Shown: piece by piece, positions 12,238 to 29,867 of the stretch | Layout: the number at the start of each line of letters is the position of its first letter | How positions within the stretch are numbered: position 1 is the first letter of the stretch | From: a virus | Strand: one strand, 5' to 3' | DNA: 29,867 nt | IMG/VR virus record: IMGVR_UViG_3300025133_000446 | Location: 1-29,867 of that record | The notes under the pieces: generated by a model | Told to the model about the DNA's origin: nothing | What the model saw: the letters and a program-made list of their open reading frames with translations, nothing else | Database searches by the model: none | Program-made: the position numbers and the translations under genes

Positions 12238-13220
12238 CGTTACACCGAAAATCATGTTGCCAAAAATGTGGTACGAACGAAAGCACTTGGACGGTTCACG
12301 AAAAAACAAAACCAGTTGCGTATTCCCCGAACACTTGGGGAACAGGTATTAAATGCGATGGAACATGCGACCACAATGTTGAATCGACTGCTTCGGTAGA
12401 AGTAATGAATAACCCCATTGATTGCGATGTTTTTGAAACTGAAACGATGACTTGCGATTGCGACATGACCGCAAATTGCACGCCGAGCAATTATGCGTTT
12501 ACAACAAGTTGCACGGGTTCATTCTATGCAGGTTTTAACCACGGTTGCAACTCTCAAACATATTCGGGAGCAGCACCCTATTCCAATAAACAAATATCTT
12601 GGAATGATTACAGCGTTGTTTCTGTTGCAGATGCTACAGAAGTTGACGGTTTTTATATTTCGTGGAATAGTGATTTAGCATTTGGCGGTGGTTGCACGGC
12701 AACAACTGGCGGTATTAAAAAAGCAACGTTGAGTTGCAACGGGCTTCAGGTTGTTTTGCGTTTTTATTTCAAAGCCGAATATATTTGGCAATACAGGTTA
12801 GGCGGATATGCAAGCCAAACAACAAGCGAATTATCTGAACACATAAACGCGCAAACTGATGAAAATGAAACTTGGTCGTTAGGCATTCAGGCAACTGCTG
12901 GCGGTATAAACCTCACAAATAATTTGGTTTCTTTTGATGAAACGATTATTAGCAATGGCGAAACAGTTTTATTGCAGCACTATAGACCAAACAAATGCGG
13001 CTTAACAACGAACTTTGGTTTTGAAGTAGACCCAAGTTGGCAATGCGGTGAACAGGCGGGTTACAATTGGGATGCCGAAAGCAGTTACGTGCAACGGACA
13101 ACTTCAGCAACTTGGGGGGTTACTGATAGCGATTCCAAGGTTGTTTGTCCAGATGTCTTTTCGTGGACAACTTCAAATTTAGCGTTATTTGTAAACAGTG
13201 CAACGGTAACCACATCATGA
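12234..13220 (+). CDS. Cysteine-rich tail-region protein (16 Cys in 328 residues)
   Basis: The N-terminus has CCQKC (8-12) and further C..C pairs (KCDGTC, CDCDMTANC); more single Cys are spread to the C-terminus. The rest is rich in Thr, Ser, Asn and aromatic residues, like extracellular beta proteins. Either metal knuckles at the N-terminus or disulfides in the mature virion would fit. I do not recognise the family. Location among tail genes with ATGA overlaps on both sides makes a virion role likely. Confidence 0.6.
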   Translation: MTLHRKSCCQKCGTNESTWTVHEKTKPVAYSPNTWGTGIKCDGTCDHNVESTASVEVMNNPIDCDVFETETMTCDCDMTANCTPSNYAFTTSCTGSFYAGFNHGCNSQTYSGAAPYSNKQISWNDYSVVSVADATEVDGFYISWNSDLAFGGGCTATTGGIKKATLSCNGLQVVLRFYFKAEYIWQYRLGGYASQTTSELSEHINAQTDENETWSLGIQATAGGINLTNNLVSFDETIISNGETVLLQHYRPNKCGLTTNFGFEVDPSWQCGEQAGYNWDAESSYVQRTTSATWGVTDSDSKVVCPDVFSWTTSNLALFVNSATVTTS

Positions 13221-16991: not shown

Positions 16992-17258
16992 ATGAACAAC
17001 ACAGCAAACAACACAGCAACAAGCATGGCAGACAAGTTACACGAAGCCAGAAAATTGGCATTCAATTTCAATTCTACTTTGGGATGGGGTTGTCGTTACG
17101 AATACAACGACCTAAAGTATTATGTGGAAGTTTCTGGTGTGAAAATGTTAGCAAGTGAAAATAAAGTAAAAATGCTTATTCGCAAAGGTGTTGTCAAAGA
17201 TATTAATACCTGTACGAGTGCAAGAACAGAAGTTACTTTTATAAAAGTATCAATCTAA
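16992..17258 (+). CDS. Small early protein of unknown function (88 residues)
   Basis: The product starts MNNTANNT and contains a helix (MADKLHEARKLAFNF) and a beta-rich centre ('YNDLKYYVEVSG'). I do not recognise a family. ACGAAAGG at 16977-16984 lies seven bases upstream of the ATG at 16992. The sequence from about 16956 into the first codons is nearly the same as before the gene at 17354, so the leader and the start of the coding region were duplicated together. Confidence 0.6.
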   Translation: MNNTANNTATSMADKLHEARKLAFNFNSTLGWGCRYEYNDLKYYVEVSGVKMLASENKVKMLIRKGVVKDINTCTSARTEVTFIKVSI

Positions 17259-17259
17259 A

Positions 17260-17346
17260 GTTGCGAGGTGGGTTGCATTCTTCGGAGTGCAACTTTCCGC
17301 ATAACTTTGTGCGAATAAACGAAACGCGGAAACGCAAAACGAAAGG
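17260..17346 (+). repeat. Structured leader repeat, copy A (87 nt)
   Basis: Identical to copy B (17663-17749) except for one base. It holds a 9-bp stem GTTGCATTC/GAGTGCAAC (17272-17293) closed by a TTCG tetraloop (one G-T pair), then a possible TTTCCGC/GCGGAAA long-range stem, and ends in ACGAAAGG, the ribosome site of the next gene. It fills the whole gap after the stop at 17258. Confidence 0.85.
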
Positions 17347-17353
17347 CAAGAAA

Positions 17354-17656
17354 ATGAACAACACAGAAACAAACAATGAAACAAACAAAAGAGAAAAATT
17401 GGTTTGGTCAATCGATGGCTTCGTAGATGGACATCAAAATCAAACAGACGAAGAATACCAAAAAGAATTAGACAGCATCACAAAGCAATATAAACTCGAT
17501 GGTAAGCCAGATGAAAATGGTATCGTACTCACCCCATTCATGTTCTGGGAAGCAGAAAGACAAATGACCCTCATGGAAGGATGGCGTGCTGGACAAGCAA
17601 GAAAAGATATGATTGCTGAAATACAAAAAAGGAAAGCACAACACGAAACAAACTAA
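17354..17656 (+). CDS. Small early protein of unknown function (100 residues)
   Basis: The product starts MNNTETNNETNKREK, much like the upstream gene's MNNT start, then has a mixed alpha/beta pattern with 'FMFWEAERQMTLMEGWRAGQARKDMIAEIQKRK' helices at the C-terminus. No family recognised. It is bracketed by the two near-identical 87-nt leader repeats, which makes it a potential deletable or exchangeable cassette. ACGAAAGG lies seven bases before the ATG at 17354. Confidence 0.62.
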   Translation: MNNTETNNETNKREKLVWSIDGFVDGHQNQTDEEYQKELDSITKQYKLDGKPDENGIVLTPFMFWEAERQMTLMEGWRAGQARKDMIAEIQKRKAQHETN

Positions 17657-17662
17657 AACTCG

Positions 17663-17749
17663 GTTGCGAGGTGGGTTGCATTCTTCGGAGTGCAACCTTC
17701 CGCATAACTTTGTGCGAATAAACGAAACGCGGAAACGCAAAACGAAAGG
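17663..17749 (+). repeat. Structured leader repeat, copy B (87 nt)
   Basis: Same element as copy A with one substitution, which here adds a G-C pair to the UUCG-capped stem (G17674-C17697, ten pairs). It ends in ACGAAAGG (17742-17749) and is followed by GATAAATGAA, where a three-codon ATG-AAA-TGA at 17754-17762 overlaps the real start at 17759. Confidence 0.85.
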
Positions 17750-17758
17750 ATAAATGAA

Positions 17759-18037
17759 ATGAATGCAAAATTAGTACAAGATAAAAAATCGGGATGTTGG
17801 GTTGCCAATAGCCATGAGGCATGGTTTAACCATAAGTGGGTTTGCAATATATGTAAATGCAATGTAAGTGGTGCGATGCCGAAAATTATTGGCATCAATG
17901 GTGAAACAACTATCAACTGTCCAGAATGTTTTTCTGAAGATACAGGCACATCACCAGATTGGATTTGTTGTAATAGCGATACCGATAAAATCCCCATTGA
18001 AAATTATTGTGAATGTGCTGAATGTCGGGGAATATAA
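17759..18037 (+). CDS. Cysteine-rich small early protein (11 Cys in 92 residues)
   Basis: Cys occur as C-N-I-C-K-C (29-34), C-P-E-C (54-57), a CC pair (70-71) and C-E-C-A-E-C (84-89), so one or two zinc-binding knuckles are likely. The N-terminus (MNAKLVQDKKSGCWVANSHEAW) looks globular. No named family recognised. AAAGGA lies eight bases before the ATG at 17759. It follows leader copy B. DNA, RNA or protein binding are all open. Confidence 0.62.
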   Translation: MNAKLVQDKKSGCWVANSHEAWFNHKWVCNICKCNVSGAMPKIIGINGETTINCPECFSEDTGTSPDWICCNSDTDKIPIENYCECAECRGI

Positions 18038-18057
18038 AACAGGCGAGGTGCATCTCA

Positions 18058-18081
18058 CCGCATAACTTTGTGCGAATAAAC
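18058..18081 (+). repeat. Partial third copy of the leader core (24 nt)
   Basis: The 24 bases from CCGCATAACTTTG to GAATAAAC are identical to 17297-17320 and 17700-17723. The flanks differ: upstream is a different small hairpin (GGTG/CACC), downstream is GGC-GAAA-GCC, a GNRA-type hairpin, then CCGAAAGG. So the core is kept while the hairpins around it are replaced by other ones. Confidence 0.8.
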
Positions 18082-18114
18082 TAAAACAGGCGAAAGCCGA
18101 AAGGATAAATGAAA

Positions 18115-18360
18115 ATGCGAATAATTAAAGAAAAAGACGCAATCACTATTGCTACTGAAGGCGTGGTTTTAGCACTCTCAGAAAAATTATATCGCCAGCA
18201 ACGTGCAGAAAATATTGCACAGAATAAATGCAATGGTGGTGAGCCGTTGCTGTGTGAGTATTTTGAACAGAGTAAAACGGGCAGGAATGTCAAACGATAT
18301 TTGCCGCTATCAATTCACCGATGGCAAAAGGTACAAAAACATGAACAAGCAAACAAATAA
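18115..18360 (+). CDS. Small early protein of unknown function (81 residues)
   Basis: The product (MRIIKEKDAITIATEG...) has an N-terminal beta hairpin, a helix (LALSEKLYRQQRAENIAQ) and a basic C-terminus. Not recognised. Two in-frame ATGs follow AAAGGA: 18109 is three bases away and 18115 is nine, so I chose the second. Its end overlaps the next gene by 20 bases. Confidence 0.55.
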   Translation: MRIIKEKDAITIATEGVVLALSEKLYRQQRAENIAQNKCNGGEPLLCEYFEQSKTGRNVKRYLPLSIHRWQKVQKHEQANK

Positions 18361-18562
18361 GTTTCATTGTGATTTGAAACACCCAACCAGAAAAGAAATA
18401 ATTGCCCGCCAAAATGTTCTCGCAATGTTAAAAATGTACCAAATGGCGAACGCATCATTAAGCCGAAAAGAATGTTTTGAATTGATGCTAAAAAAAGAAC
18501 GAAAGTTTTTGGGGTTGGATATAAAACTAAAACCAAACAAGAATAGGAAAAAACGAAAATGA
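18341..18562 (+). CDS. Small basic early protein (73 residues), unknown
   Basis: The product is Lys/Arg-rich (ending KPNKNRKKRK) with two predicted helices (RKEIIARQNVLAMLKMYQM and RKECFELMLKKERKFL), suggesting a nucleic-acid contact. AAAGG at 18327-18331 lies about nine bases before the ATG at 18341, inside the upstream gene. Stop overlaps the next start as ATGA. Confidence 0.55.
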   Translation: MNKQTNKFHCDLKHPTRKEIIARQNVLAMLKMYQMANASLSRKECFELMLKKERKFLGLDIKLKPNKNRKKRK

Positions 18563-18744
18563 AAAACGGAAAAAAAATAACTTGCCCACATTGCAAAAAA
18601 CAAGCAACAATTTATCATGGCAAATTTACCGCGCTAATGTGCGGGCGAATGCAGGATGGTGCAGTTGTTGAGGGTTGCGGTAAAATGGTCGATAAAGCAG
18701 ATTGGCTGGAAGGCACAAAAGCAAGTAAGCCCGAAACCTGTTAA
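18559..18744 (+). CDS. Zinc-ribbon-like small protein (61 residues)
   Basis: C-P-H-C at 9-12 and later Cys at 28 and 40 form a plausible four-Cys zinc site: 'ITCPHCKKQATIYHGKFTALMC....GCG'. Such ribbons are frequent in small phage proteins that act with replication or transcription proteins. The ATG overlaps the upstream stop (ATGA). The exact role is not visible. Confidence 0.62.
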   Translation: MKNGKKITCPHCKKQATIYHGKFTALMCGRMQDGAVVEGCGKMVDKADWLEGTKASKPETC

Positions 18745-18824
18745 GATAAAACAACAATTTGACCGTTGTTCAAAAAAGCGCACAACGCGCACCAACGGCG
18801 AATGTAAAACGAAAGGAGTGCAAT

Positions 18825-19667
18825 ATGGCACTACGCGCAACGAAACCGTCGGCGCGAACAAGACGGTTAAAATTATTGATGTACGGTGATGCAGGAGTTG
18901 GTAAAACAACCGCTTGCTGCCAAATGCCCGCGCCGTACTTGATTGATTCCGAACGCGGTACGGATAATTACCACGAACTTGTCAACGCGGTTGGTGGTGC
19001 AGTTTTCCAAACAACTTCAATTGAAGATGTGATTGATGAAGTGCGCAATTTATCAATCGAACCGCATGATTTTAAGACGTTGGTAATTGATTCTATTTCA
19101 CCCTTGTTTTTTGATTTGGTCGAAAAGTGTGAAAAAGAGGTTGGCAATGAGTGGGGCAAACATTACCAAGAAGCCAGCAAGCACATGAAACGCTTGGTGA
19201 ATTTGTTGCTGCGCTTGGATATGAACGTTGTTATCACTGCGCACGCAAAGCCAGAATACGGTGACGAAATGAAAGTGATTGGTACAACCTTTGAAGGTTG
19301 GAAACGATTGCCTTACATTTTCGATTTGGTATTGCACTTGGAAAAGCCAACACCAACGAAGCGATTTGCGCGAGTTTGCAAAACTCGAATTGAGGGTTTT
19401 CCTGATGGCGAAACATTTGAATGGACATTTGAAGAATTGGCCAAACGCTATTCGATGCAAGAACTTGAACGAACTGCGAAGGTCGTTACGCCAGCAACTT
19501 CAAAACAGGTTGCAGAAATTGAAGCGTATGTAATTAACTACGTAAGCGGTGGCGAATTTGTAAGCAATTGTTTGACAAAACTCGGCATTGATGAATTGAA
19601 GGATTTAACAAAAGAACAGGCAACTAAAATGGTTGCCGCAATTAAAAAGAAAGTGAGTGTAAAGTAA
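18825..19667 (+). CDS. Sak4-like RecA-family ATPase (single-strand annealing/recombination)
   Basis: The 280-residue protein has Walker A GDAGVGKTT at 21-29, Walker B TLVIDS (85-90, D89) and 'VVITAHAK' at 135-142, the layout of Sak4-like phage ATPases (AAA_24). Sak4 proteins support phage recombination and pair with an SSB, which is exactly the next gene here. I chose ATG 18825 because AAAGGAG at 18812-18818 lies upstream and the family starts just before the ATPase core; the frame is open further upstream to 18759. Last base overlaps the next start (TAATG). Confidence 0.9.
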   Translation: MALRATKPSARTRRLKLLMYGDAGVGKTTACCQMPAPYLIDSERGTDNYHELVNAVGGAVFQTTSIEDVIDEVRNLSIEPHDFKTLVIDSISPLFFDLVEKCEKEVGNEWGKHYQEASKHMKRLVNLLLRLDMNVVITAHAKPEYGDEMKVIGTTFEGWKRLPYIFDLVLHLEKPTPTKRFARVCKTRIEGFPDGETFEWTFEELAKRYSMQELERTAKVVTPATSKQVAEIEAYVINYVSGGEFVSNCLTKLGIDELKDLTKEQATKMVAAIKKKVSVK

Positions 19668-20095
19668 TGACATTTAATTTTGATGCAACTGGAGTAGAGG
19701 AAAAAACCTTTATCTGTTTTCCTGCGGGTGAATATGAAGCCGAAATTGTTGAGATAAAACAACAGGTTTCAAAGAAGGGTAACGATATGCTAAAACTTGA
19801 TATTGATTGCTATTCAAACGATGGCAAGAAGGTGCGGGTTTTTGATTATATTGTTGCGCCTTCATCACTGTACAAATTAAAAGCAATCTGCAAATTTACT
19901 GGGATTGCTTTTGATGGTAAAATCGAGGAACAATTGCTGAAAGGCAAGCGCGTATTTGTGAAGTTAAAGATTGACCCAGAAGGCGAATACCCTGCGCGTA
20001 ATTCAATCGCAGCATATATTGGGGCTTGTAGTCAAAAACAGCAACCCCAACCTGAAACAACGAAGCCAATAATAGATGATGATATTCCATTTTGA
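19667..20095 (+). CDS. Single-stranded DNA-binding protein, DUF669 family
   Basis: The 142-residue protein has the OB-like DUF669 pattern ('FPAGEYEAEIVEIKQQVSKKGNDMLKLDIDCY') and a Pro/Gln-rich linker. It ends in DDDIPF, the same last six residues as E. coli SSB. That tip is the docking site for many host repair and replication proteins in bacteria, so this phage SSB probably recruits them too. Pairing with Sak4 directly upstream supports a recombination role. DUF669 as SSB is known for several phages; the tip interaction is my inference. Confidence 0.88.
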   Translation: MTFNFDATGVEEKTFICFPAGEYEAEIVEIKQQVSKKGNDMLKLDIDCYSNDGKKVRVFDYIVAPSSLYKLKAICKFTGIAFDGKIEEQLLKGKRVFVKLKIDPEGEYPARNSIAAYIGACSQKQQPQPETTKPIIDDDIPF

Positions 20096-20101
20096 TATTT
20101 A

Positions 20102-20172
20102 ACCTTTCGTGCCGTGGGCGGTGTAAAAACCGTCTGCGGTGAAAGGTAACGAAAAGACAACAAACGAAAGGT
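20102..20172 (+). promoter_or_regulatory. Structured leader with an anti-ribosome-site arm before the IbrB-like gene
   Basis: ACCTTTC (20102-20108) pairs with GAAAGGT (20141-20147), enclosing an 11-pair hairpin (20112-20122 with 20129-20139, including three G-T pairs). The same 5' arm, ACCTTTCGT (20102-20110), is also the perfect complement of ACGAAAGGT (20164-20172), the ribosome site of the next gene. The two pairings exclude each other. No T-run follows, so it is not a simple terminator. Confidence 0.6.
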
Positions 20173-20182
20173 AAAGTAAGTA

Positions 20183-20863
20183 ATGAAAAAAAAACACGAT
20201 GAATGTATTAGTGGGATTAAAATTATTGCCAAGATTTTATTCAAAATGAAAATCGAGGAACGCATTAATTGCTTAAATGAAATACGGATGGAGTTGCACA
20301 GAGTTTCGCCATTTAAGAATGAACCTGTTGATTGTGTGCAGTGGATTAAATGCGAAGATGTTTTTGCGAACGATTACAACCCCAACAGCGTTGCCCCACC
20401 AGAAATGAAACTTTTAGAACATAGTATTGACGAGGATGGTTATACGCAACCAATTGTTGCGTGGGAACGCGAAGAGCATTTTGAGGTTATAGATGGTTTC
20501 CATCGAAATCGAGTTGGACGGGAGTGTCCGAGCGTTACAGATAGGATACACAATCATTTACCGTTAGCAGTAATAAATACAAACCGCGAAGATAGAAACG
20601 ATAGAATCGCATCGACAATTCGACACAATCGCGCAAGGGGCAAGCACAAAATTGATGCAATGGCTGAAATTGTGATTGAATTAAAACGGCGCAATTGGTC
20701 GGACAAGCGCATATCTAAAGAACTTGGCATGGATGCAGATGAAGTTTTGCGTTTATCACAAATTACTGGTCTTGCAGAAATGTTTGCAAATCATGAATTT
20801 AGTGAAGCGTGGGAAGCAGAATCTATTGACGAAAGCGATACATTAGATGAAGCAAATATTTAG
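20183..20863 (+). CDS. IbrB/ParB-like nuclease-fold protein
   Basis: The 226-residue protein carries the ParB/Srx fold as in IbrB: 'ANDYNPNSVAPPEMKLLEHS' near 62-81, DGYTQPIV at 85-92, GFHR at 105-108 and STIRHNRARGKH at 144-155. A helix-turn-helix-like end (NWSDKRISKELGMDADEVLRL, 171-191) follows. IbrB is known beside IbrA (PAPS-reductase family) in enterobacterial prophages; here the IbrA-like gene comes two genes later. A plasmid-partition role is unlikely since there is no ParA. The cluster's biochemical function is unsettled; DNA binding with sulfur or nucleotide chemistry is a guess. Confidence 0.85.
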   Translation: MKKKHDECISGIKIIAKILFKMKIEERINCLNEIRMELHRVSPFKNEPVDCVQWIKCEDVFANDYNPNSVAPPEMKLLEHSIDEDGYTQPIVAWEREEHFEVIDGFHRNRVGRECPSVTDRIHNHLPLAVINTNREDRNDRIASTIRHNRARGKHKIDAMAEIVIELKRRNWSDKRISKELGMDADEVLRLSQITGLAEMFANHEFSEAWEAESIDESDTLDEANI

Positions 20864-21236
20864 AAACTATCTTGAATGGGAAGATTGGCAACGAGGGATG
20901 TATGCGCCAATGAAACCCGAATTAGAAGAACGCATGATTGAGGATGCTATACAATTGTTGTCTAATTCGGACAAATGTTTAGCGTTCATGGAGCGTGTAA
21001 CAATAACAATGCCTATTGCAACACTTGTAAATTTAACTAATTTAGGTTGTAATCGTAAGGCGTGGATTGGTCAAGCATCATGTTTTGAATATGCTGGCTG
21101 TGTTGATTTAGCGACACGAATAGCATGGTGGAAACTAGAACCACAACAACAAAACGAAGCAAATGAAATCGCAAAATTAGTAATAAATGAATGGGAGCAA
21201 CAATGCCTAAACAAGCAATTGGTATTAATGTTTTAG
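20847..21236 (+). CDS. Unnamed phage protein between the IbrB- and IbrA-like genes
   Basis: The 129-residue protein starts 'YLEWEDWQRGMYAPM' and has the stretch NLTNLGCNRKAWIGQASCFE, then 'TRIAWWKLEPQQQNEANEIAKLVINEWE'. I recall similar N-R-R-A-W-L-G-Q-A-A-C proteins in other phages with the same two neighbours, but know no assigned function. The sequence looks helical and soluble. It overlaps the upstream gene by 17 bases and the downstream gene by 34, so the three are almost certainly one translational unit. Confidence 0.7.
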   Translation: MKQIFRNYLEWEDWQRGMYAPMKPELEERMIEDAIQLLSNSDKCLAFMERVTITMPIATLVNLTNLGCNRKAWIGQASCFEYAGCVDLATRIAWWKLEPQQQNEANEIAKLVINEWEQQCLNKQLVLMF

Positions 21237-22444
21237 AAGCAGCAAAACAGCGCATAGGTTGGACTTTTGATAATTATGAAAACATATACATTAGTTTTAG
21301 TGGGGGCAAGGATTCAACGGTAATGCTTCATCTTGTAATGGACGAGGCGATAAAAAGAAAGCGCAAGGTCGGGGTTATGTTTATTGATTTAGAAGGTCAA
21401 TATAAAATGACTATTTCGCATACTCAGGCGTGCTACGATTTATATGAAAAGCATATCGAACCGCATTGGATTTGTTTACCAATTCATTTGCGAAATGCAG
21501 TAAGTGTATACGACCCATTTTGGGTATGTTGGGAAGAATCAGAAAAAGAAAATTGGATTCGTTCCAAACCGAAAACATGTATTGACGATGAAAATTTTTA
21601 CCCTTTCTTTTGTGAAGGTATGGAGTTTGAAGAGTTTGTACCAGAATTTGGTGATTGGTTTGCAGGTGATAAAACGGCTGCGTGTTTTGTTGGTATACGA
21701 ACCGATGAAAGTTTGAATAGGTATAGAACTATTACACATAAAAACAAAAAGCGTGTAGATGATTTGGGTTGGACAACACGTGTAACTGAGCGGTGTACAA
21801 ATATTTATCCGATTTATGATTGGAGAACAGAAGATGTTTGGGCATATCATGGAAAGAATCCCGATAGACCATATAACAAATTATACGATTTAATGTACAA
21901 AGCAGGTTTGACAATACACCAAAGTAGGATTTGCCAGCCCTATGGCGATGACCAAAGAAGGGGGTTATGGTTATTTCATTTAATCGAGCCAGAAACATGG
22001 TCAAGGGTTGTTGCAAGAGTAAATGGGGCAAACTCTGGTGCGTTATATGTAAATGAATCTGGAAATATGACGGGTTATAGAAAGATAAGCAAGCCAGAGG
22101 GGCATACGTGGGAAAGTTTTGCAAACCTGCTTGTAAATTCAATGCCACCAAAAACTTGCGAACACTATAAAAACAAAATTGCGAAGTTTTGTCAATGGTG
22201 GCAAGAACGAGGGTACAGTGAGGGTATTCCTGATGAAGGGGATTTGCGGCTGGAACAAGATAGAAAAATTCCATCTTGGCGCAGGGTGTGTAAATCATTG
22301 TTGCGTAATGATTTTTGGTGTAAGGGATTAAGTTTTACGCAAACAAAATCAACGGCATATCAAAAATATTTGGATTTTATGAAGCAAAAAAGAGAAACAA
22401 TGGAATTGAGTGGCATGCTATTTGAAAAACGAAAGGTAAAGTAA
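21203..22444 (+). CDS. IbrA-like phosphoadenosine-phosphosulfate reductase family protein (DUF3440)
   Basis: The 413-residue protein has the ATP-pyrophosphatase PP-loop SGGKDS at 33-38 and the DUF3440-type C-terminal half with 'IYDWRTEDVWAYHG', 'QSRICQPYGDDQRRGLW' and 'CEHYKNKIAKFCQWW'. PP-loop enzymes activate a substrate by adenylation; relatives include PAPS reductases and DndC of DNA phosphorothioation. IbrA itself has been tied to gene regulation in E. coli prophages. The start is ATG 21203, with GGGAG at 21193-21197, rather than the ATG at 21191 that overlaps the site. Complete and apparently functional. Confidence 0.87.
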   Translation: MPKQAIGINVLEAAKQRIGWTFDNYENIYISFSGGKDSTVMLHLVMDEAIKRKRKVGVMFIDLEGQYKMTISHTQACYDLYEKHIEPHWICLPIHLRNAVSVYDPFWVCWEESEKENWIRSKPKTCIDDENFYPFFCEGMEFEEFVPEFGDWFAGDKTAACFVGIRTDESLNRYRTITHKNKKRVDDLGWTTRVTERCTNIYPIYDWRTEDVWAYHGKNPDRPYNKLYDLMYKAGLTIHQSRICQPYGDDQRRGLWLFHLIEPETWSRVVARVNGANSGALYVNESGNMTGYRKISKPEGHTWESFANLLVNSMPPKTCEHYKNKIAKFCQWWQERGYSEGIPDEGDLRLEQDRKIPSWRRVCKSLLRNDFWCKGLSFTQTKSTAYQKYLDFMKQKRETMELSGMLFEKRKVK

Positions 22445-23328
22445 TGGTTGAAGAAAATAAAATTATTTCGATAGTTGATTGGAATGAGCATTTTGAAAAA
22501 TCTCAAACGCGAAAAATAGCCAAGCATTCTTGGGTTGCAGTGCCAAATAAACACGATGGTTTGGGATTGAAAAAGATGCTACGCGAAGAAAATGGGCTTG
22601 AAATCTTTGCCATTTGGATTTTCTTAATTCAGATTGCAAGCAAATGCGAAACGCGCGGTATTCTTGCAGACGAAAAGGGGCGGGGTTACTCAATTGACGA
22701 TATTGCCTTGAAGGTTGGCTGCAAAACGCAAACAGTTGAATGCGCAATTCCGTTTCTAGTGTCAATAAACTGGGTTTCTATAGTCACTGGTAGCACGCTA
22801 CCAGCAGACTACCAGCACGCTACCACCGCGCTACCACCAGACTACCACGGCACTGGTAGCACACTGGTAACTACATTACATAACAATACAGAACATAACA
22901 CTACAGAACAGCATATAACAAAACAGGATAAAACAGAACCATATTTTCCAGAAGGCAATTCTGTTGAAGATGAGGCTGTTAGGGCGTTCGCTACTGGATA
23001 CCTGCGAAATCCCATAATTCAAACCGTAATTTCGGCGATTCCTAAACATAGGCTGGTTAGCCCAGTGCCAACCGCGCGTGCAATCATCGCTGCAATCAAT
23101 CGCACCAACGCTAAAACGCACGAAGAACGTAAAATTGCAGCAGTCGCGCTTGCTGAACGTTTTGAGTTATATTACGCTTCGTCCGAAGGGCAACAGGAAT
23201 ATTTCAAAGACCCAGATAAATGGTTGAATGAAGATAGGCATTTGGTTGACCCAAGCGTTTGGGATTCACGAAAAAAACAAACAGAGGCTACACCGTGGGA
23301 ACGAATACACGAATTAAACGAGGAATAA
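22444..23328 (+). CDS. Replication initiator with internal origin (lambda O-like)
   Basis: The 294-residue protein has an N-terminal winged-helix-like domain (about 28-112: 'HSWVAVPNKHDGLGLKKML', 'IFAIWIFLIQIASKC', 'SIDDIALKVGCKTQTVECAIPFL'), a low-complexity Thr/His/Asn linker (115-168) and a helical C-terminal domain. This is the plan of phage initiators such as lambda O. The linker DNA is an iteron array followed by AT-rich sequence, exactly as the lambda origin lies in O. Start overlaps the upstream stop (TAATG); ACGAAAGG sits seven bases before the ATG. Sequence similarity to O itself is not evident, so the call rests on layout. Confidence 0.72.
   Translation: MVEENKIISIVDWNEHFEKSQTRKIAKHSWVAVPNKHDGLGLKKMLREENGLEIFAIWIFLIQIASKCETRGILADEKGRGYSIDDIALKVGCKTQTVECAIPFLVSINWVSIVTGSTLPADYQHATTALPPDYHGTGSTLVTTLHNNTEHNTTEQHITKQDKTEPYFPEGNSVEDEAVRAFATGYLRNPIIQTVISAIPKHRLVSPVPTARAIIAAINRTNAKTHEERKIAAVALAERFELYYASSEGQQEYFKDPDKWLNEDRHLVDPSVWDSRKKQTEATPWERIHELNEE
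22787..22874 (+). repeat. Iteron array: eight 11-bp units inside the initiator gene
   Basis: Eight contiguous 11-base units start at 22787, 22798, 22809, 22820, 22831, 22842, 22853 and 22864. Units 2-6 begin CTACCA; units 1, 7 and 8 begin CTGGTA, the inverted form. Units 1 and 2 make a perfect palindrome, CTGGTAG/CTACCAG (22787-22804). Period 11 is not a multiple of three, so the repetition is imposed at DNA level and not by the protein. It is close to one helix turn, placing all sites on one face. Confidence 0.85.
22875..22950 (+). other. AT-rich segment next to the iterons, candidate origin unwinding element
   Basis: Directly after the iterons lies a stretch with few G residues on the + strand and high A+T, including TACAGAACA twice (near 22887 and 22902) and AAAACAG twice. 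Iterons followed by an AT-rich, easily melted region within the initiator gene is the layout of the lambda origin. Strand asymmetry (A/C rich) may help single-strand exposure. Confidence 0.65.
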
Positions 23329-23329
23329 A

Positions 23330-23671
23330 ATGCTATTAACAAATAAACAAATGAACGCTATGATTGAAAAAGTGGAAACGCTAGAAACCACAATTAGACC
23401 AGATGAAATAACAGATATTAGATATGCAGTTAAAACAATCAAATTACTAATTGAACTAAACAAAAATTCGGTTGATGGAATTTTGCAACACCACAAAGCA
23501 CTTGACACATTGCTAACAATACGAAGTATTGAAAAGGCAATAGACACTGCTGAGATATGCACAAAGTGTGATGGAACTGGTGGTGTTGCCAGTAATAAAG
23601 TTTTTGGTTCAATGCTCGGTGCAATTGACGAATGCCCTGAATGTAATGGAACTGGCGAGAAAGTAGGATGA
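23330..23671 (+). CDS. Small protein with two DnaJ-type zinc knuckles
   Basis: The 113-residue protein has a helical N-terminal two-thirds (coiled-coil-like, 5-75) and then CTKCDGTGG at 77-85 and CPECNGTGE at 102-110, two CxxCxGxG knuckles that together bind one zinc as in DnaJ. No J domain is present. It might bridge replication proteins or bind DNA. Its stop overlaps the exonuclease start (ATGA), so the two are likely made together. Confidence 0.72.
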   Translation: MLLTNKQMNAMIEKVETLETTIRPDEITDIRYAVKTIKLLIELNKNSVDGILQHHKALDTLLTIRSIEKAIDTAEICTKCDGTGGVASNKVFGSMLGAIDECPECNGTGEKVG

Positions 23672-24465
23672 AAATGGAAAACACAAATTTGAAGTTTGAC
23701 TATTTTTCTCGCGTTGGCATTTCTGCAACATTATTAAAATCAATCATAAAACAATCGCCAGTACACGCAGCAACCCGAATGCGAACCTTCAAGCCATCGC
23801 CAACGATGAACCTTGGCACGGCTGCACATTGCGCAATCCTTGAACCCCATCGCTACAATGAGTTGATTGCCATTTGCCCAGATTGCGACAGGCGAACAAA
23901 AACGGGCAAAGCAGAATACGCTTCGTTTGTTGAAAGTGCTGGCAAAAAGACGGTTATCAAATACGACCAGCATGAAGCAGTAATAGCAATGGCAAATGCG
24001 GTTGATGAACATGAACACGCTACTGAATTGATGCAGGATACAAAGCGCGAAGTTGAAATTGATTTTGCATTTGATGGCGAAACGTGCAAGGCAAAAATTG
24101 ATGCAGTCAAGGGTGATAATACAATTATTGATATTAAAACAACCATTGATGCAAGCCCAGATGCCTTTGCAAGACAATCTGCAAGTTTGTTTTATCAAAT
24201 GCAAATGGCGTGGTACGCGAAGGCAATTGGTAGCAGTTGGAAAACGTGCAACTGTTATGTAATTGCGGTTGAAAATACAGAGCCTTATGGCGTTGCTGTT
24301 TATCGCTATGATGTTGATGTACTCGATAACGGCTGGAAGTTATGCTGTAGGGCATTACGACAATGGCGCGATTACAACGCAACAATTTCAAAAAATGAAA
24401 CGCCAAAAGCGTATGGCGATTGTGTTTACGATATTGAATTGCCCGCGTGGGCAGAAAGGGTTTGA
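23668..24465 (+). CDS. RecE-like PD-(D/E)XK exonuclease
   Basis: The 265-residue protein matches the PDDEXK_1/RecE C-terminal nuclease: 'NLGTAAHCAILEPHRY' at 48-63, KIDAV at 143-147 (D145) and IIDIKTT at 153-159 (D155, K157), then 'FARQSASLFYQMQMAWY'. Such enzymes chew double-stranded ends to produce 3' overhangs for annealing proteins. Together with Sak4 and the DUF669 SSB it completes a phage recombination set. A second in-frame ATG at 23674 is possible as start. Confidence 0.86.
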   Translation: MKMENTNLKFDYFSRVGISATLLKSIIKQSPVHAATRMRTFKPSPTMNLGTAAHCAILEPHRYNELIAICPDCDRRTKTGKAEYASFVESAGKKTVIKYDQHEAVIAMANAVDEHEHATELMQDTKREVEIDFAFDGETCKAKIDAVKGDNTIIDIKTTIDASPDAFARQSASLFYQMQMAWYAKAIGSSWKTCNCYVIAVENTEPYGVAVYRYDVDVLDNGWKLCCRALRQWRDYNATISKNETPKAYGDCVYDIELPAWAERV

Positions 24466-24466
24466 A

Positions 24467-24877
24467 ATGAATAAAGAAAAACTAAACGAACAACGGGTTA
24501 AGCAGGAAGGGCTTATTCAGTCACTTGCAAATCAACAAACGGTTTTGCACAAATCGCGCGTTGATGTGTATTCGCTATTGAGCGAAGGATGCCTGTATGA
24601 AGTACACGTTGAAACAGAAAACTACAGTAAAACGCGCGAAGAATTGAACTGTTCGCCAAATGTTGTTGGGGTTTGGCACGTTCCCAGTATCTTGGGCAGA
24701 TTAGAGCGTTTGACAAATCCTCAAGAAGTTACATTGATTGCAAATGAATTGATGTATGAACTGTATGAAATTACACCGTACGTGGCTACAGATTTTGGTT
24801 TACAACTTGATGAACCTGAATCGGGTGACCAAGATGCTGCGGATGATATGAAAGAAAGGGAGTTTTTGAATGATTGA
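24467..24877 (+). CDS. Unknown acidic protein (136 residues)
   Basis: The product is soluble, with an N-terminal helix (MNKEKLNEQRVKQEGLIQSLANQQTVL) and an acidic tail rich in Asp/Glu ('DEPESGDQDAADDMKERE'). The pattern 'VPSILGRLERLTNPQEVTLIANELMYEL' looks helical. No family recognised. It starts one base after the exonuclease stop, with GAAAGGG upstream, so it is part of the same operon. The frame is open further upstream, but that part only shadows the exonuclease gene. Confidence 0.65.
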   Translation: MNKEKLNEQRVKQEGLIQSLANQQTVLHKSRVDVYSLLSEGCLYEVHVETENYSKTREELNCSPNVVGVWHVPSILGRLERLTNPQEVTLIANELMYELYEITPYVATDFGLQLDEPESGDQDAADDMKEREFLND

Positions 24878-25013
24878 CAAAACAACAGAAAAACTAGGTT
24901 GCGTGGGGTTGTTTTTTGTAGTGTTTGCAACACTTTTAATGCTTGCAGTACGGGGCTTTGCATTTGGTGTTGGTGTGTATTTTGCGTTTCGCGTTTTGGG
25001 AGTTGAAATATGA
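24870..25013 (+). CDS. Small membrane protein (47 residues)
   Basis: After a short polar start (MIDKTTEKLG) the product is one long hydrophobic segment (GLFFVVFATLLMLAV) and a second semi-hydrophobic part. GGGAG lies about eight bases before the ATG. It overlaps the upstream stop by eight bases and the next start by ATGA, which supports a real gene. A membrane-directed early function such as exclusion is possible, but nothing shows it. Confidence 0.55.
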   Translation: MIDKTTEKLGCVGLFFVVFATLLMLAVRGFAFGVGVYFAFRVLGVEI

Positions 25014-25204
25014 AGAACAGTATATTTTTCTCAAAAACGTACGAAGAAATGCAGGTTGCAATCGCAATAAAAAAAGCAAACGATTATGAAAACGGAACAA
25101 CAAAATGGCAATTTGATAAACTGCGCAAGCGAATTATTGAACTTGAAAGTGAACTTGAAAAAATGAAAGGCGTAACGAATGAACGAAATAGAAACAACAA
25201 TTGA
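25010..25204 (+). CDS. Short coiled-coil protein (64 residues)
   Basis: The product is mostly charged helix; the second half (QFDKLRKRIIELESELEKMK) has a clear heptad pattern, so it probably dimerises or binds a partner helix. The ATG overlaps the upstream stop (ATGA) and the 3' end overlaps the next gene by 26 bases. Confidence 0.58.
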   Translation: MKNSIFFSKTYEEMQVAIAIKKANDYENGTTKWQFDKLRKRIIELESELEKMKGVTNERNRNNN

Positions 25205-25706
25205 CAGGAGTGCAGAATGGAAAAAAACGCTTGAACTTATGGCGGGGCTTTTTCCAAAGTGGGCGGTTACGCCACAACAATTTAATTCGTGGAAGGAACA
25301 ATTCGGGATGCTAAACCCAGAGTGGTTTCGTGAAGCATTGAAAGTTGTATACCATCGCTATAATTCTGAAACGCCAAAACCCAAATGGGTGGCGGATGCG
25401 TTCAAAGAGGTACGTGCTGGGCATCGCGGCGTACCTTTAACCGAAAGCGATAGCGCAGAATCGCAACGGCAAAAAGCAATACAAGAACGAAAAGAAGAAG
25501 AATATCAAGTGAATTTGGAACGCGAAAACGCTTGGCTGGTTGTTGCAAGTTGGGATAACGAAGAACGAATAAACTGGGCTACACAATTCAAAGAACGATT
25601 TGAGGGGATTGCAGAACTTAACGATACGGCGAATATGAATACATGGTCTAAAACATTTGCACAATTTGTAAAAGCATTTCGGGTAGTTGAGGAACGAAAC
25701 GCATGA
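25179..25706 (+). CDS. Possible helicase-loader-like replication accessory protein
   Basis: The 175-residue protein has an N-terminal helical region ('LELMAGLFPKWAVTPQQFNSWKEQFG', 'FREALKVVYHRY', 'PKPKWVADAFKEV', about 18-82) that resembles the N-terminal domain of phage helicase loaders/inhibitors of the G39P type. A charged helix (95-115) and a C-terminal helical domain follow. This assignment is by pattern only. Its place in the replication block and the absence of a phage helicase make a loader for the host helicase attractive. ATGA overlap joins it to the next gene. Confidence 0.45.
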   Translation: MNEIETTIDRSAEWKKTLELMAGLFPKWAVTPQQFNSWKEQFGMLNPEWFREALKVVYHRYNSETPKPKWVADAFKEVRAGHRGVPLTESDSAESQRQKAIQERKEEEYQVNLERENAWLVVASWDNEERINWATQFKERFEGIAELNDTANMNTWSKTFAQFVKAFRVVEERNA

Positions 25707-26107
25707 ACGGAATAAAATCAAGCAAGGCAACAACACCATTTTCAAAGTTGTCGCAACGTTGCCAAAATATTTTGATTGAAATGAAAAAAAAAGAATGGAC
25801 AAGCAGAATTGAAATATCAAAAACCTTAGATATAACAGTTGCGCAAATAACTTCATCAATGGAGTTATTGAAATACCACGGCTATAAATTTGATTCGCGC
25901 ATAATTGAAAATAAAAATTATTATGAATACAGGTTTACGGATGGTGAACAACGTGAGCAGGTTCAAAGGCTTGCCACACGAAGCGTAAACGCCAGCCTAG
26001 AGCGTTTGATAATCGAAATGAACCGTATCCGCAATACGTCAAACGAGCGCGGTATACGCAAAATAGCGAGTAATGCGCTTGAAGCGTGCGGTTTATTGAC
26101 GGATTAG
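25703..26107 (+). CDS. Winged-helix DNA-binding protein (134 residues)
   Basis: Residues 13-80 ('LSQRCQNILIEMKKKEWTSR', 'IEISKTLDITVAQITSSMELLKYHGY', then strands 'YYEYRFTDG') form a good winged helix-turn-helix pattern. The C-terminal part is a helical tail. It may regulate the phage's early genes. It is the last gene before an intergenic region with TATAAT and an inverted repeat, so it could act there. ATGA overlap with the upstream gene. Confidence 0.62.
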   Translation: MNGIKSSKATTPFSKLSQRCQNILIEMKKKEWTSRIEISKTLDITVAQITSSMELLKYHGYKFDSRIIENKNYYEYRFTDGEQREQVQRLATRSVNASLERLIIEMNRIRNTSNERGIRKIASNALEACGLLTD

Positions 26108-26164
26108 GGCGGGTTTTGTACCTTTTCGCTGAATAATGACAAAAAAATGGTAAAATTGCCACAT

Positions 26165-26197
26165 ATTGGCTACATTGAGCCGATAAGTTTGTATAAT
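26165..26197 (+). promoter_or_regulatory. Candidate promoter with an operator-like inverted repeat
   Basis: ATTGGCT (26165-26171) and AGCCGAT (26178-26184) form a seven-pair inverted repeat (one G-T pair), followed after seven bases by a perfect TATAAT (26192-26197). No clear -35 is present at normal distance; the dyad covers where an activator or repressor would bind. It drives the small genes from 26241. Confidence 0.5.
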
Positions 26198-26240
26198 GGA
26201 AAGCATGTCAAACGAACAAACAACAAAAGGAAACGAAACA

Positions 26241-26402
26241 ATGAACAAACTAAACATCATCATCAAAAAGAACAGAAGCAACAAAGAAGTGGCATTCAAG
26301 ATTGTGCGAAGTTGTGGTCAACTTCTCAAAAGAAGAATGAAATTAAACGATGCGTACTTCATGCTCGCAAACGGTTCAGCAAGAATCGCAAAAGATTTTT
26401 GA
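26241..26402 (+). CDS. Small basic protein (53 residues), unknown
   Basis: The product (MNKLNIIIKKNRSNKEVAFK...) is basic, with a helix near 'EVAFKIVRSCGQLLKRRMKLNDAYFML'. Not recognised. In-frame ATGs also occur at 26196 and 26205; I chose 26241 because AAGGA at 26227-26231 lies nine bases upstream and because 26196 falls within the promoter box. Confidence 0.48.
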   Translation: MNKLNIIIKKNRSNKEVAFKIVRSCGQLLKRRMKLNDAYFMLANGSARIAKDF

Positions 26403-26437
26403 ACAAACACAAACCCCAAAACGAAAGGCAAAACAAA

Positions 26438-26746
26438 ATGACAAACGAAACAACAAACAAAGAAACAATCGACACAATCAGTCTTTCGCAGTTGGTTGAT
26501 ATTGTTGAACAGGCAGAGGATGAAATCCTTGAAGAAACAGATGAAACAATGGCTTTTCTTCGTATGAAGAATTATCAACAATTGAGTATGCTTCTCGACT
26601 ATTTGCGAATGGCAAAAAGAGCAACAGGTGAACGACAGCAAATGATTTTGGAATATGCCAAGAAGCACTACAAAAGTTTGTACACTCGGCAACAGCAAAA
26701 AGTCGAGTTCATACAGCCTCTTTTACGCAGCGTATCTTTTACTTAA
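26438..26746 (+). CDS. Small helical protein (102 residues), unknown
   Basis: The product starts MTNETTNKETID, similar in style to the Asn/Thr-rich starts of the genes at 16992 and 17354, then is helical ('LSQLVDIVEQAEDEILEETDE' and further). ACGAAAGG lies nine bases before the ATG at 26438. No family recognised. The open frame extends upstream but that part is not plausible coding sequence. Confidence 0.58.
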   Translation: MTNETTNKETIDTISLSQLVDIVEQAEDEILEETDETMAFLRMKNYQQLSMLLDYLRMAKRATGERQQMILEYAKKHYKSLYTRQQQKVEFIQPLLRSVSFT

Positions 26747-26779
26747 TAAACCGCCGAAAAACAGAAAGGGAAAATGAAA

Positions 26780-27034
26780 ATGGAACAAAGAAAATATGAC
26801 ATCAAAGGCATGACCGTCAATGGAAGGGAATTGCTTGCACTGATGGGTAATTCATTTGGAATCAGCGGTGGGGCTTGGCTAGATGAGAAGAATGTTCATA
26901 ATCTCACAGACAAAGCAATTGAAGGAATTGTTTTTATGTTGTGGACTATGAAGAATCTTCCACCAGACAAAGAAAAAGACAAGCAACTGGTGTTGAAAGA
27001 ACTTGGCAATGGGTTGTGGGAAGATAATGAATAA
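26780..27034 (+). CDS. Small protein (84 residues), unknown
   Basis: The product has 'YDIKGMTVNGRELLALMGN', a helix-containing centre and 'KQLVLKELGNGLWEDNE' at the end. No family recognised. AAAGGG is three bases from the ATG at 26774 and nine from 26780, so I chose the second. The leader (AATAAACCGCCG) recurs after this gene's own stop. Confidence 0.55.
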   Translation: MEQRKYDIKGMTVNGRELLALMGNSFGISGGAWLDEKNVHNLTDKAIEGIVFMLWTMKNLPPDKEKDKQLVLKELGNGLWEDNE

Positions 27035-27066
27035 ACCGCCGCAAGGCACAACGAAAGGATAGCACA

Positions 27067-27156
27067 ATGAAATATTTGAAATTATTACTTGAAGCCACAA
27101 TAGAATTTTTAACGGTGGGGTTGAGCAGCAGACCACATAACGGCGGTGAAAAATGA
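27067..27156 (+). CDS. Very short coupled reading frame (29 residues)
   Basis: ACGAAAGG (27051-27058) stands eight bases before the ATG, and the TGA overlaps the next gene's ATG (ATGA). The product starts MKYLKLLLEATIEFLTVGL. The perfect early-gene ribosome site argues that it is translated; it may be a real small amphipathic peptide or only a coupling leader for the gene at 27153. Confidence 0.42.
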   Translation: MKYLKLLLEATIEFLTVGLSSRPHNGGEK

Positions 27157-27470
27157 AAACAGCAATTTATTCAATTCAATACAGCAATTGCAAAGAACAA
27201 CCAAAATGCTTTATTCAACACAGACCAGCATTAGCCTGTTTTAATCGTGAGGCTAGCCGTCTAAGAAAGGGCGATGTATCTTGGGGTTCTGTTAGGCTGG
27301 TTAAATGGGAAGCAACAGGAACGCCGCGCAGCGTTGCAAGTGCAATGGTTGAAATTGGTTCAGCGATTTCGGGTGGTATTCCAATTCGACAAATAAACAA
27401 TCAGGCGATTGTGCAAATGGCAAAAATAGAATCGTGGATTCTCCAAGAACAGGTAAGTATTTTGGCGTAA
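27153..27470 (+). CDS. Unknown protein (105 residues), last gene of the early block
   Basis: The product (MKTAIYSIQYSNCKEQPKCF...) has a beta-like N-terminus and an amphipathic helix in the C-terminal half ('PRSVASAMVEIGSAISGG'). No family recognised. It lacks its own clear ribosome site and is coupled to the short frame before it (ATGA). A TATAAT, a dyad and a terminator follow its stop. Confidence 0.58.
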   Translation: MKTAIYSIQYSNCKEQPKCFIQHRPALACFNREASRLRKGDVSWGSVRLVKWEATGTPRSVASAMVEIGSAISGGIPIRQINNQAIVQMAKIESWILQEQVSILA

Positions 27471-27480
27471 TCTGTTAGAA

Positions 27481-27507
27481 TATAATTGGTATCGGTATAC
27501 GCGATAC
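27481..27507 (+). promoter_or_regulatory. TATAAT box followed by an operator-like dyad
   Basis: A perfect TATAAT (27481-27486) is followed by GTATCG (27489-27494), GTATAC (27495-27500, itself a palindrome) and CGATAC (27502-27507), an inverted repeat over the expected transcription start. TGTTA/TAACA at 27473 and 27510 flank it. A -35 is not evident. This looks like a repressible start site upstream of the terminator and the sigma-like gene. Confidence 0.45.
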
Positions 27508-27517
27508 TTTAACATAT

Positions 27518-27574
27518 CCCCCTTGACCCCTGCCGAGTTTTTTCGTTTACTTGGTAGGGGTTCTTTTTTGGGGG
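27518..27574 (+). terminator. Intrinsic terminator before the sigma-like gene
   Basis: ACCCCTGCC (27526-27534) pairs with GGTAGGGGT (27553-27561), nine pairs with one G-T, followed by TTCTTTTTT. An outer CCCCC (27518-27522)/GGGGG (27570-27574) can extend it, with a second T-run after it (27582-27589). It would end early transcription, or attenuate the promoter just upstream. Confidence 0.68.
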
Positions 27575-27638
27575 CATTATATTTTTTTTAATGTGCAATA
27601 ATAAAATAGCCGAAACGTATATTATTGGAGTAATTAAA

Positions 27639-28151
27639 ATGGCAGAAATTAGGGGAATTGATGTAAACGAAATTTCAAACGCTGCGTTGCGCTGGGCAAA
27701 ACACGCGCAACATCGCCACGGTTACGGAAAATGGGAACTGGACGAATTGCACAATGAGGCGTTTATTATTACTGCGCACTTGGTTGAATCTGGACGTTAC
27801 GACCCCACCAAGGCGAAGTTGATTACGTTTCTATCTTACGCATTACCTTTTGAAGTTAGGCGAAAATATAGGCGTATGAATGGCGAAAGATTGCTTACAA
27901 ATAAAGAAGGCAAAAAAGAATACCAGCGCAAAGAATATGTTAGCAGTGATATAATTGAATCGGCGGAAACCAATTATGATGGTACACTACAAACAATTGA
28001 ACCCAAGCCAAATAGCGAATGGGCAAGGGCTAGGATTGCAGGGTTTACGGCTAGGGAATTGACAAAACGCGGGCTGAGTTACAAACAACAAAAACAACAG
28101 GCGGAGCAATTCAGAAATGACCAACGGAAATCAAAAGGGCAAACGCGGTGA
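27639..28151 (+). CDS. Sigma-70-like phage transcription factor
   Basis: The 170-residue protein resembles sigma region 2 at about 33-79 ('ELDELHNEAFIITAHLVESG', 'YDPTKAKLITFLSYALPFEVRRKYRR'). A weak region-4-like helical pair follows near 'ARARIAGFTARELTKRGLSYKQQKQQAEQF'. It could redirect host RNA polymerase to late promoters. It is the first gene after a terminator and precedes lysis, packaging and structural genes, the right place for a late regulator. I chose ATG 27639 with TTGGAG eight bases upstream; an ATG at 27591 has no site. Confidence 0.68.
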   Translation: MAEIRGIDVNEISNAALRWAKHAQHRHGYGKWELDELHNEAFIITAHLVESGRYDPTKAKLITFLSYALPFEVRRKYRRMNGERLLTNKEGKKEYQRKEYVSSDIIESAETNYDGTLQTIEPKPNSEWARARIAGFTARELTKRGLSYKQQKQQAEQFRNDQRKSKGQTR

Positions 28152-28458
28152 ACGGTTTGTTGCGCAATGGCTTAGGGATTCTTTTGGATGTAAAGCGCGG
28201 CGGGGGAAACAATACTGTGGGCTAGAAGGAAATGCCGATGTGGTTGGCGGGTTTCCAAACACGCACTGCGAAGTTAAATTTGTGGAATCCCTGAATTTGT
28301 ACAAGGCAATGCATCAAGCAATAAACGAATGTGGGCAGTCAATACCGTATGTTGCACATAAAAAAAATCGGCAAGAACTCTTGATAACAGTACGCGCAAA
28401 AGATTTATTAGCATTTTCTTTGGCAGTGGTCGAGCAAGATGCGATAAACAAACGATGA
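28117..28458 (+). CDS. Hjc-like PD-(D/E)XK resolvase or endonuclease
   Basis: The 113-residue protein has the nuclease residues E12 (GKRGERF), D41 (GNADVVG) and E52-V-K54 (HCEVK), the pattern of archaeal Hjc-like Holliday-junction resolvases and related small phage nucleases. It would resolve branched concatemers before packaging. The start overlaps the sigma-like gene by 35 bases, with GGAG at 28102-28105. The stop overlaps the next gene (ATGA). Confidence 0.78.
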   Translation: MTNGNQKGKRGERFVAQWLRDSFGCKARRGKQYCGLEGNADVVGGFPNTHCEVKFVESLNLYKAMHQAINECGQSIPYVAHKKNRQELLITVRAKDLLAFSLAVVEQDAINKR

Positions 28459-28676
28459 CAAAAGATAATCAAAATGGTTGGGGCGAACATAAGCGCCTCG
28501 TTTTACATAGGCTTGGAGCAATAGAAAATGATTTACACACAATTGAAAAGCGCTTGGCACGAATGGAAAAACAAATGGCAGTGCAAGCAAGCCAAGCGCG
28601 TTTGGTTGCTGGTGCAATCGGCGCAGTTGCGGGTTTGTTACCTGCTGTTATTACCATTATTGTTAGCAGGTTGTAG
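28455..28676 (+). CDS. XhlA-like membrane protein, candidate lysis accessory
   Basis: The 73-residue protein has a coiled-coil-like segment (about 12-45, 'LHTIEKRLARMEKQMAVQ') and one C-terminal membrane span (50-71, 'VAGAIGAVAGLLPAVITIIVS'), the build of XhlA-type proteins that work with holins. The last half of the gene is also read in a second frame by the next gene (28528 on), so these bases code twice. ATGA overlap with the resolvase gene. Confidence 0.65.
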   Translation: MTKDNQNGWGEHKRLVLHRLGAIENDLHTIEKRLARMEKQMAVQASQARLVAGAIGAVAGLLPAVITIIVSRL

Positions 28677-29034
28677 CATGTTTGATTTTATGACAACAAA
28701 CAAGCCCACGTTTGCGGATGATATGCAAGAACTTGTTGTGGATACTGCGCAGCACGCAACGCAGGAACTGGCTGTTCTTTCTTGGGTTGGTGGATTGGCA
28801 ACAATGGCGGGCGTTGTCGCGCTAGTTATTACGCGCGGTGCAATGGGAATGCGTGCAATCATCATTGGGTGTTTGCTTATTGTGTTAAACTTTGCCATAG
28901 CGAATTATCTTTCTTGGATTTTGGTGCCTGTTCTTGTAGCAACTGGCGCAATTAGTTTATCTTGGTCGTATGTTACGATTAAAGAAATGTTACTTAAAAA
29001 AAAGGAATGCGAACATGATGTTAGCAACGATTAG
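28528..29034 (+). CDS. Lipobox-bearing, multi-span membrane protein, candidate holin/lysis protein
   Basis: In the 168-residue frame, a basic hydrophobic segment (35-48) runs into LLAGC (45-49), a lipoprotein signal peptidase II motif with C49. Three membrane spans follow (about 83-101, 107-126, 128-148), then a Lys-rich end. The start is uncertain: ATG 28528, TTG 28606, or ATG 28678, which would drop the lipobox. If the lipobox is used, its signal lies in another frame within the XhlA-like gene, like the nested Rz/Rz1 spanin genes. Three spans suggest a holin. Confidence 0.6.
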   Translation: MIYTQLKSAWHEWKNKWQCKQAKRVWLLVQSAQLRVCYLLLLPLLLAGCSMFDFMTTNKPTFADDMQELVVDTAQHATQELAVLSWVGGLATMAGVVALVITRGAMGMRAIIIGCLLIVLNFAIANYLSWILVPVLVATGAISLSWSYVTIKEMLLKKKECEHDVSND

Positions 29035-29137
29035 TGATATGTTGGGGAATATGTGGTGGACGGCTCTGGTGGGTGTGGTTTGTTTTGTTGGCGGTGTGTA
29101 TTTTTCATCAACAATAAAAAGTAAGATGGGCAGATAA
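29015..29137 (+). CDS. Small membrane protein (40 residues)
   Basis: MMLATISDMLGNMWWTALVG... has one clear membrane span (14-30, 'WWTALVGVVCFVGGVYF') and a short basic end. AAAGG lies about ten bases upstream of the ATG, and it overlaps the previous gene's end by 20 bases. In a lysis cassette a short second membrane protein may be an antiholin or small holin, but this is a guess from position. Confidence 0.55.
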   Translation: MMLATISDMLGNMWWTALVGVVCFVGGVYFSSTIKSKMGR

Positions 29138-29142
29138 ACCAA

Positions 29143-29803: not shown

Positions 29804-29867
29804 TACGGATAACGCGCACGAATGCAGGGGGGGCGGTTCTAATCGCTACAGGGCTGCGCTACCGTAT
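29800..29867 (+). CDS. terS: 5' end of the terminase small subunit gene, running off the window end
   Basis: An ATG at 29800 overlaps the TGA of the HNH gene (ATGA), and its frame stays open for 22 codons to the last base. Joined to base 1 it continues, through a second ATG that spans the join, into the small-terminase frame at position 2. The full product would then have 151 residues, a normal size for P27-like small terminases. The ATGA coupling matches the overlap style of the other late genes. I infer circularity from this; a chance open frame of 68 bases is possible. Confidence 0.5.
   Translation, partial: MIRITRTNAGGAVLIATGLRYR

Follow-up and report, generated by a model that had tools for sequence, protein, structure and literature searches.

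The 87-nt leader that separates the SSB-like gene from the IbrB-like gene (stop-to-start gap) is predicted from modeled folds to act as a cis-acting translation switch, a reading to which we give a probability of roughly 0.55–0.6. A fixed hairpin would present a pyrimidine arm with two possible partners, a decoy copy of the Shine-Dalgarno (SD) sequence, leaving the SD free, or the true SD of the IbrB-like gene, which is then hidden (Table 1). The leader lies in the second half of the window, i.e., the whole 29,867-nt stretch of viral DNA that was analyzed. Its upstream neighbors are a Sak4-like AAA gene (weak tblastn matches only) and then the DUF669/SSB-like gene, and on the other side follow genes for the IbrB-like protein, an IbrA-like protein (PAPS reductase/DUF3440), a DnaD-like helicase loader and an exonuclease; judged by these protein families, the neighborhood is an early recombination/replication module. 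DNA matches to phages and plasmids lay chiefly in the IbrB/IbrA region, and the best matches of the portal and terminase proteins were to phages of Firmicutes-type hosts, at about 40–44% identity. The helicase-loader gene contains 11-nt tandem repeats (window positions 22792–22846).

Table 1. Features of the leader and its flanking genes (window coordinates).
Feature	Position	Strand	Basis or role
Upstream gene, DUF669/SSB-like protein	19667–20095	+	Pfam DUF669, 5e-06; PHROG 378 (single strand DNA binding protein), 2.8e-10
Anti-SD arm, ACCTTTCGT	20102–20110	+	Direct reading, folding, shuffles
Constant GC-rich 12-bp stem with 6-nt loop	20111–20140	+	20111–20122 with 20129–20140, folding
Decoy, GAAAGGT	20141–20147	+	Arm partner in the SD-free fold A
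SD site of the IbrB-like gene, ACGAAAGGT	20164–20172	+	Arm partner in the SD-hidden fold B
IbrB-like (ParB/sulfiredoxin-type) gene, 226 aa	20183–20863	+	PHROG 2159, 6.6e-70; phage homologues annotated IbrB

A first-pass annotation of the sequence had described the arm as the exact reverse complement of the SD, and direct reading confirmed this, as it did the second partner, the first seven bases of the arm forming 7 bp with the decoy. The 'bulky hairpin' noted at the same time also exists, and its core is a perfect 12-bp stem (GCCGTGGGCGGT/ACCGTCTGCGGT, with no mismatch if G-U pairs are counted) that is common to both folds. The stop codon of the SSB-like gene (20093–20095) lies 6 nt upstream of the arm, and the ATG of the IbrB-like gene (20183) lies 11 nt past ACGAAAGG. 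On the + strand of the entire window the hexamer CCTTTC occurs only twice. The full arm sequence arose in 9 of 20,000 dinucleotide shuffles of positions 20096–20163, and in none of these was it followed by GAAAGGT. The leader fold has an energy of −32.7 kcal/mol (z = −5.74), which none of 200 shuffles equaled, and its ensemble energy was matched by none of 1000. The rarity of the arm in shuffles together with the z-score of the fold argues that the arm is not a product of chance.

Folding energies, proposed in the first-pass annotation as a check, bear out two mutually exclusive folds built on one common stem. At 37 °C, fold A (arm with decoy, SD free) was computed at −29.5 kcal/mol and fold B (arm with SD, SD hidden) at −30.6 kcal/mol, or −32.7 kcal/mol when five flanking pairs are included, so that the SD-hidden fold is favored by 1–3 kcal/mol. 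It stayed ahead at 20, 30, 37 and 42 °C, and from the lowest to the highest of these temperatures the gap narrowed from 5.5 to 2.5 kcal/mol with the flanking pairs and from 2.0 to 0.8 kcal/mol without them, the two folds never crossing. A temperature response of the leader is nonetheless possible.

The energies thus agree with the claim that one fold hides the SD and the other frees it, but the hiding is partial. Opening the SD costs 3.57 kcal/mol, compared with 0.39–1.85 kcal/mol at the seven other ACGAAAGG sites in a context of the same size, and this cost drops to about 1.8 kcal/mol once more upstream sequence is included. When the context spans 90 nt on the upstream side and 45 nt on the downstream side, the value of 1.8 kcal/mol ranks second of the eight sites, behind 2.2 kcal/mol at 22429. 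Among 1000 shuffled leaders, 110 had a cost at least as high as the figure of 3.57 kcal/mol. When the decoy was forced to remain unpaired, the opening cost rose from 3.57 to 8.21 kcal/mol, and the decoy therefore appears to turn a very tight lid into one that is easily lifted.

Taken together, the leader is a probable, as yet unproven, cis-acting switch of a known type, either lambda cIII-like or a coupling hairpin. A cis switch as such is the best overall explanation, at slightly better than even odds. Translational coupling as its trigger, with the SD freed by ribosomes that finish the upstream gene, is the leading mechanism on the computed energies and is given distinctly less than even odds. 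In an idle mRNA the hidden fold would dominate; ribosomes terminating on the SSB-like gene would occupy the arm and thereby set the SD free, and the IbrB-like protein would be made while its upstream neighbor is being translated. Blocking positions 20096–20105 to mimic a terminating ribosome lowered the predicted opening cost of the SD to 0.75 kcal/mol, and extending the cover to 20108 lowered it further to 0.51 kcal/mol, the blocked positions following the general ribosome footprint. As transcription reaches the decoy ahead of the SD, fresh transcripts would begin in the SD-free state and may then drift to the SD-hidden state.

An RNA-unfolding model of coupling, with the hairpins of f1 genes VII/IX, MS2 coat/lysis and rpmI-rplT among its examples, is covered in a 2025 review (PMC12548453). 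Like those hairpins, the leader hides an SD between co-directional genes, and an upstream ribosome is predicted, from energies only, to free it (3.57 to 0.5–0.75 kcal/mol). It differs in that the arm begins just past the stop codon, the gap is 87 nt long and a decoy is present. The same review describes a negative correlation between coupling and structure directly behind an upstream stop codon, and reports that coupling in phage f1 was abolished at a spacing of +89 nt, where the stop codon is well upstream of the hairpin (PMC12548453). The stop-to-start gap of the present leader speaks against coupling, although its stop codon is only 6 nt from the arm.

Twenty-one loci with relatives of the IbrB-like gene were collected, and one of them (L019) belongs to a near-identical phage module that differs from the window by 8 mismatches in 12,125 bp and by none in the leader. 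On reading, the layout was absent from the other 20 loci (60–68% identical), and the layout pattern returned none of them. Relatives that keep the gene and lose the complementary arm had been named in the first-pass annotation as evidence against a switch; 20 of the 21 loci are of this kind, the near-identical phage being the exception. Since these 20 are at most 68% identical in IbrB and have different upstream sequences, they indicate that the switch is not a trait of the IbrB family, and do not show that the present leader lacks a function. The covariation that had been suggested as a further check is absent at this locus, the sole close copy being identical. Scoring the IbrB relatives by the length of complement did not discriminate, as their AT-rich leaders gave at most 8 nt and the control also at most 8, including 8 in the window. 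A DNA search for distant copies of the leader in phages found none, the leader repeat GCATAACTTTGTGCGAATAA occurs among the viral contigs only in the near-identical phage, and a search of the viral contigs with the DUF669 protein gave a match in 1 of 12 candidate stretches, which was this phage again. A pattern of arm, SD and ATG was found in 0 of 369 genomes of one class, as was its reversed-arm control (0 of 369), which makes this comparison uninformative.

The two near-identical phages share a 12.1 kb early module (IMGVR_UViG_3300008050_000064, 37522–49646; window, 17743–29867) at 99.93% identity. To the left of it, blastn detected no colinear DNA between the two records; in the window this part encodes an HK97-type portal and a terminase, while IMGVR_UViG_3300008050_000064 has a short, 37-nt match to the terminase gene of Vibrio phage phi-A318. 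The position of the junction at a ACGAAAGG leader suggests either that the module was exchanged recently or that it was joined on in assembly. Near-repeated intergenic leaders occur at 17243–17355 and 17655–17759 (and partly at 18037–18109), with CCGCATAACTTTGTGCGAATAAACGAAACGCGGAAACGCAAAACGAAAGG in common and a hairpin-like stretch in front. They precede small early genes, and among the viral contigs their 20-nt core is found elsewhere only in the near-identical phage.

A search with an arm, decoy and SD pattern found the same order of elements in an unrelated phage (L025), which has TTTAACCTTTCGTGCC (16 nt identical to the window), the decoy ACGAAAGGT, the SD AACGAAAGG and a TTG start. At an E-value of 1, blastn aligned it with the window over only three stretches of 16–21 nt, one of them the arm region. 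In its predicted fold the arm is open or paired with the decoy, depending on context, and not with the SD. One L025 protein had no match in phages. Directly upstream of its arm (12320–12380) there is a sequence resembling a promoter, together with a hairpin that carries a T run, and ACCCTAC in the leader loop has its complement, GTAGGGT, upstream. Patterns containing GTGCC, run against the viral contigs, also returned L025 and the near-identical phage (L026), and their remaining hits (L031–L033 and L036–L041) lacked an arm, decoy and SD layout before a start codon. A locus from the first pattern scan (L027) and the two loci from a pattern search of genome contigs were unrelated by eye.

The layout was then expressed as CCTTTC, GAAAGG and AACGAAAGG with variable gaps, the control being a reversed arm that keeps the dinucleotides. 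There were 17 matches in 16 viral stretches for the real pattern and 13 for the control, six of which were common to both (CCTTTCC) and were removed from the comparison of start codons. A start codon and ORF followed the SD in 9 of 11 real-only matches and in 0 of 7 control-only matches, where the count for the real pattern includes L045 by way of a GTG, and the starts given to L042, L046 and L052 fall inside long open frames and may be mis-assigned. After near copies had been merged and the window's own relative taken out, the figures were 7 of 9 and 0 of 4 (hand-computed Fisher p of about 0.02).

The match of each arm to its own SD, counted past the letters that were searched for, was evaluated for 11 of the 17 matches, leaving out L043, L044, L045 and both L054 matches as coding or repetitive, and also L049, which nearly duplicates L042; reduced sets held 10, 8 and 7 matches. 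In the set of 11, the extension amounted to 20 bases, where permutation gave 11.0 on average (p 0.001), and without the window's element to 17 compared with 9.4 (p 0.004). The corresponding decoy match was weak across phages, with p 0.04, and 0.17 in the set of 7 that omits the window, L025, L050 and L053.

In L052, L055 and the pair L042/L049, the CCTTTC lies in the loop of a GC-rich hairpin of 10–13 bp, and the loop of L052, TTTGTCCTTTC, has an 11-bp match to the SD. These loci (L052, about 1920–1971, − strand; L055, 4583–4653; L042, 3143–3188; L049, 8962–9006, − strand) have tandem GAAAGG copies downstream of the hairpin, and then a start codon. By their sequence the loop arms could form H-type pseudoknots on the SD, a type of structure that the folding program cannot score. 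The L055 and L052 leaders had no match in the phage collection. It is conceivable, though doubtful, that 'anti-SD arm, decoy SD, true SD' is a recurring phage design that arose or spread before unrelated genes, with a pseudoknot variant and with the decoy tuning the opening of the SD. A limited search of the literature found no paper describing this layout. Devices of this general type are already known, and the recurrence in unrelated phages, on small numbers, is the most interesting part of the result.

The most serious competitor of the cis switch, though still an unlikely one, is that the leader has no regulatory role and is a strong hairpin next to an SD rich in purines, found because it was sought. 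The modest SD cost in the longer context is in keeping with this, as are the 11% of shuffles that reach the higher cost, the identical leader in the sole close relative, and the 23 of 2978 90-nt genome windows that fold at least as well as the leader. Set against it are the scarcity of the arm and the unmatched ensemble energy in shuffles, and the arm-SD matching that recurs across unrelated phages.

It is less probable still that the leader works as in lambda cIII, with temperature, Mg2+ or RNase III rather than an upstream ribosome shifting the balance between the folds. The cIII mRNA, which reportedly alternates between structures A and B (PMC8346122), is the closest phage precedent for alternative mRNA folds. 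Both systems are leaders of phage early genes with two exclusive folds of near-equal energy, one of which hides the SD, and the likeness is one of analogy, not homology. In the present leader, however, a single arm picks the decoy copy or the true SD, the stem is constant and non-coding, and the lead of fold B throughout 20–42 °C, with a gap that narrows without crossing, argues against a shift by temperature. A fourU RNA thermometer was rejected. The blyA fourU element of SP-beta (PMC10586365) is likewise a phage leader in which the SD is paired by a pyrimidine arm; the arm here, ACCUUUCGU, has no run of four uridines, and instead of melting near host temperature the hidden fold is favored even at 42 °C.

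Similarly improbable is a hairpin for intercistronic RNase III processing or mRNA stability, in which the match between its foot and the SD would be incidental. Such hairpins are known from phages such as T7, and the long stem, which has an internal loop and is flanked by two early genes, would suit this role, but the exact SD match (9 of 20,000 shuffles) and the return of the arm, decoy and SD order in L025 speak against it. As for other kinds of element, an intrinsic terminator was rejected, as the stem is followed by GAAAGGTAACG with no T run and the leader is unlisted in a scan for T-tail terminators; a known Rfam RNA family was likewise rejected, with 0 matches above the gathering threshold in the window.

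The first-pass annotation had also stated that ACGAAAGG heads at least eight early genes, of which seven are clear and one is doubtful. The string occurs eight times on the + strand of the window and once on the − strand (the arm), against 1.18 expected on both strands, and nine or more copies were reached in 0 of 100 shuffles. An ATG lies 4–11 nt downstream of all eight + strand copies, and seven head ORFs of at least 88 aa, where the copy at 17742 is counted by the 92-aa ORF from the next ATG (17759); the copy at 27051 heads a frame of only 29 codons. In many bacteria the 3′ tail of the 16S rRNA fits GAAAGG, and SD pairing with that tail is a simple account of the shared string. The trans action that had been suggested, taken as joint repression of these genes by an antisense RNA from the leader, is very improbable: the arm is complementary to 8 nt common to the eight sites, but freeing it costs 11.8 kcal/mol while the duplexes with the SD strings tried return 11.0–12.3 kcal/mol, the window has no match to a known RNA in Rfam, a separate RNA is not indicated because the T-tail scan gave no + strand terminator near the leader, and the common SD is already explained by the 16S rRNA tail.

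If the cis switch is real, the leader would represent a compact, bistable control of translation within an early phage operon, in which a decoy SD allows a very stable hairpin to be opened and the output of the IbrB-like protein is tied to translation of the SSB-like protein upstream. Should the layout truly recur in unrelated leaders, it would provide a motif that is easy to look for and to test.
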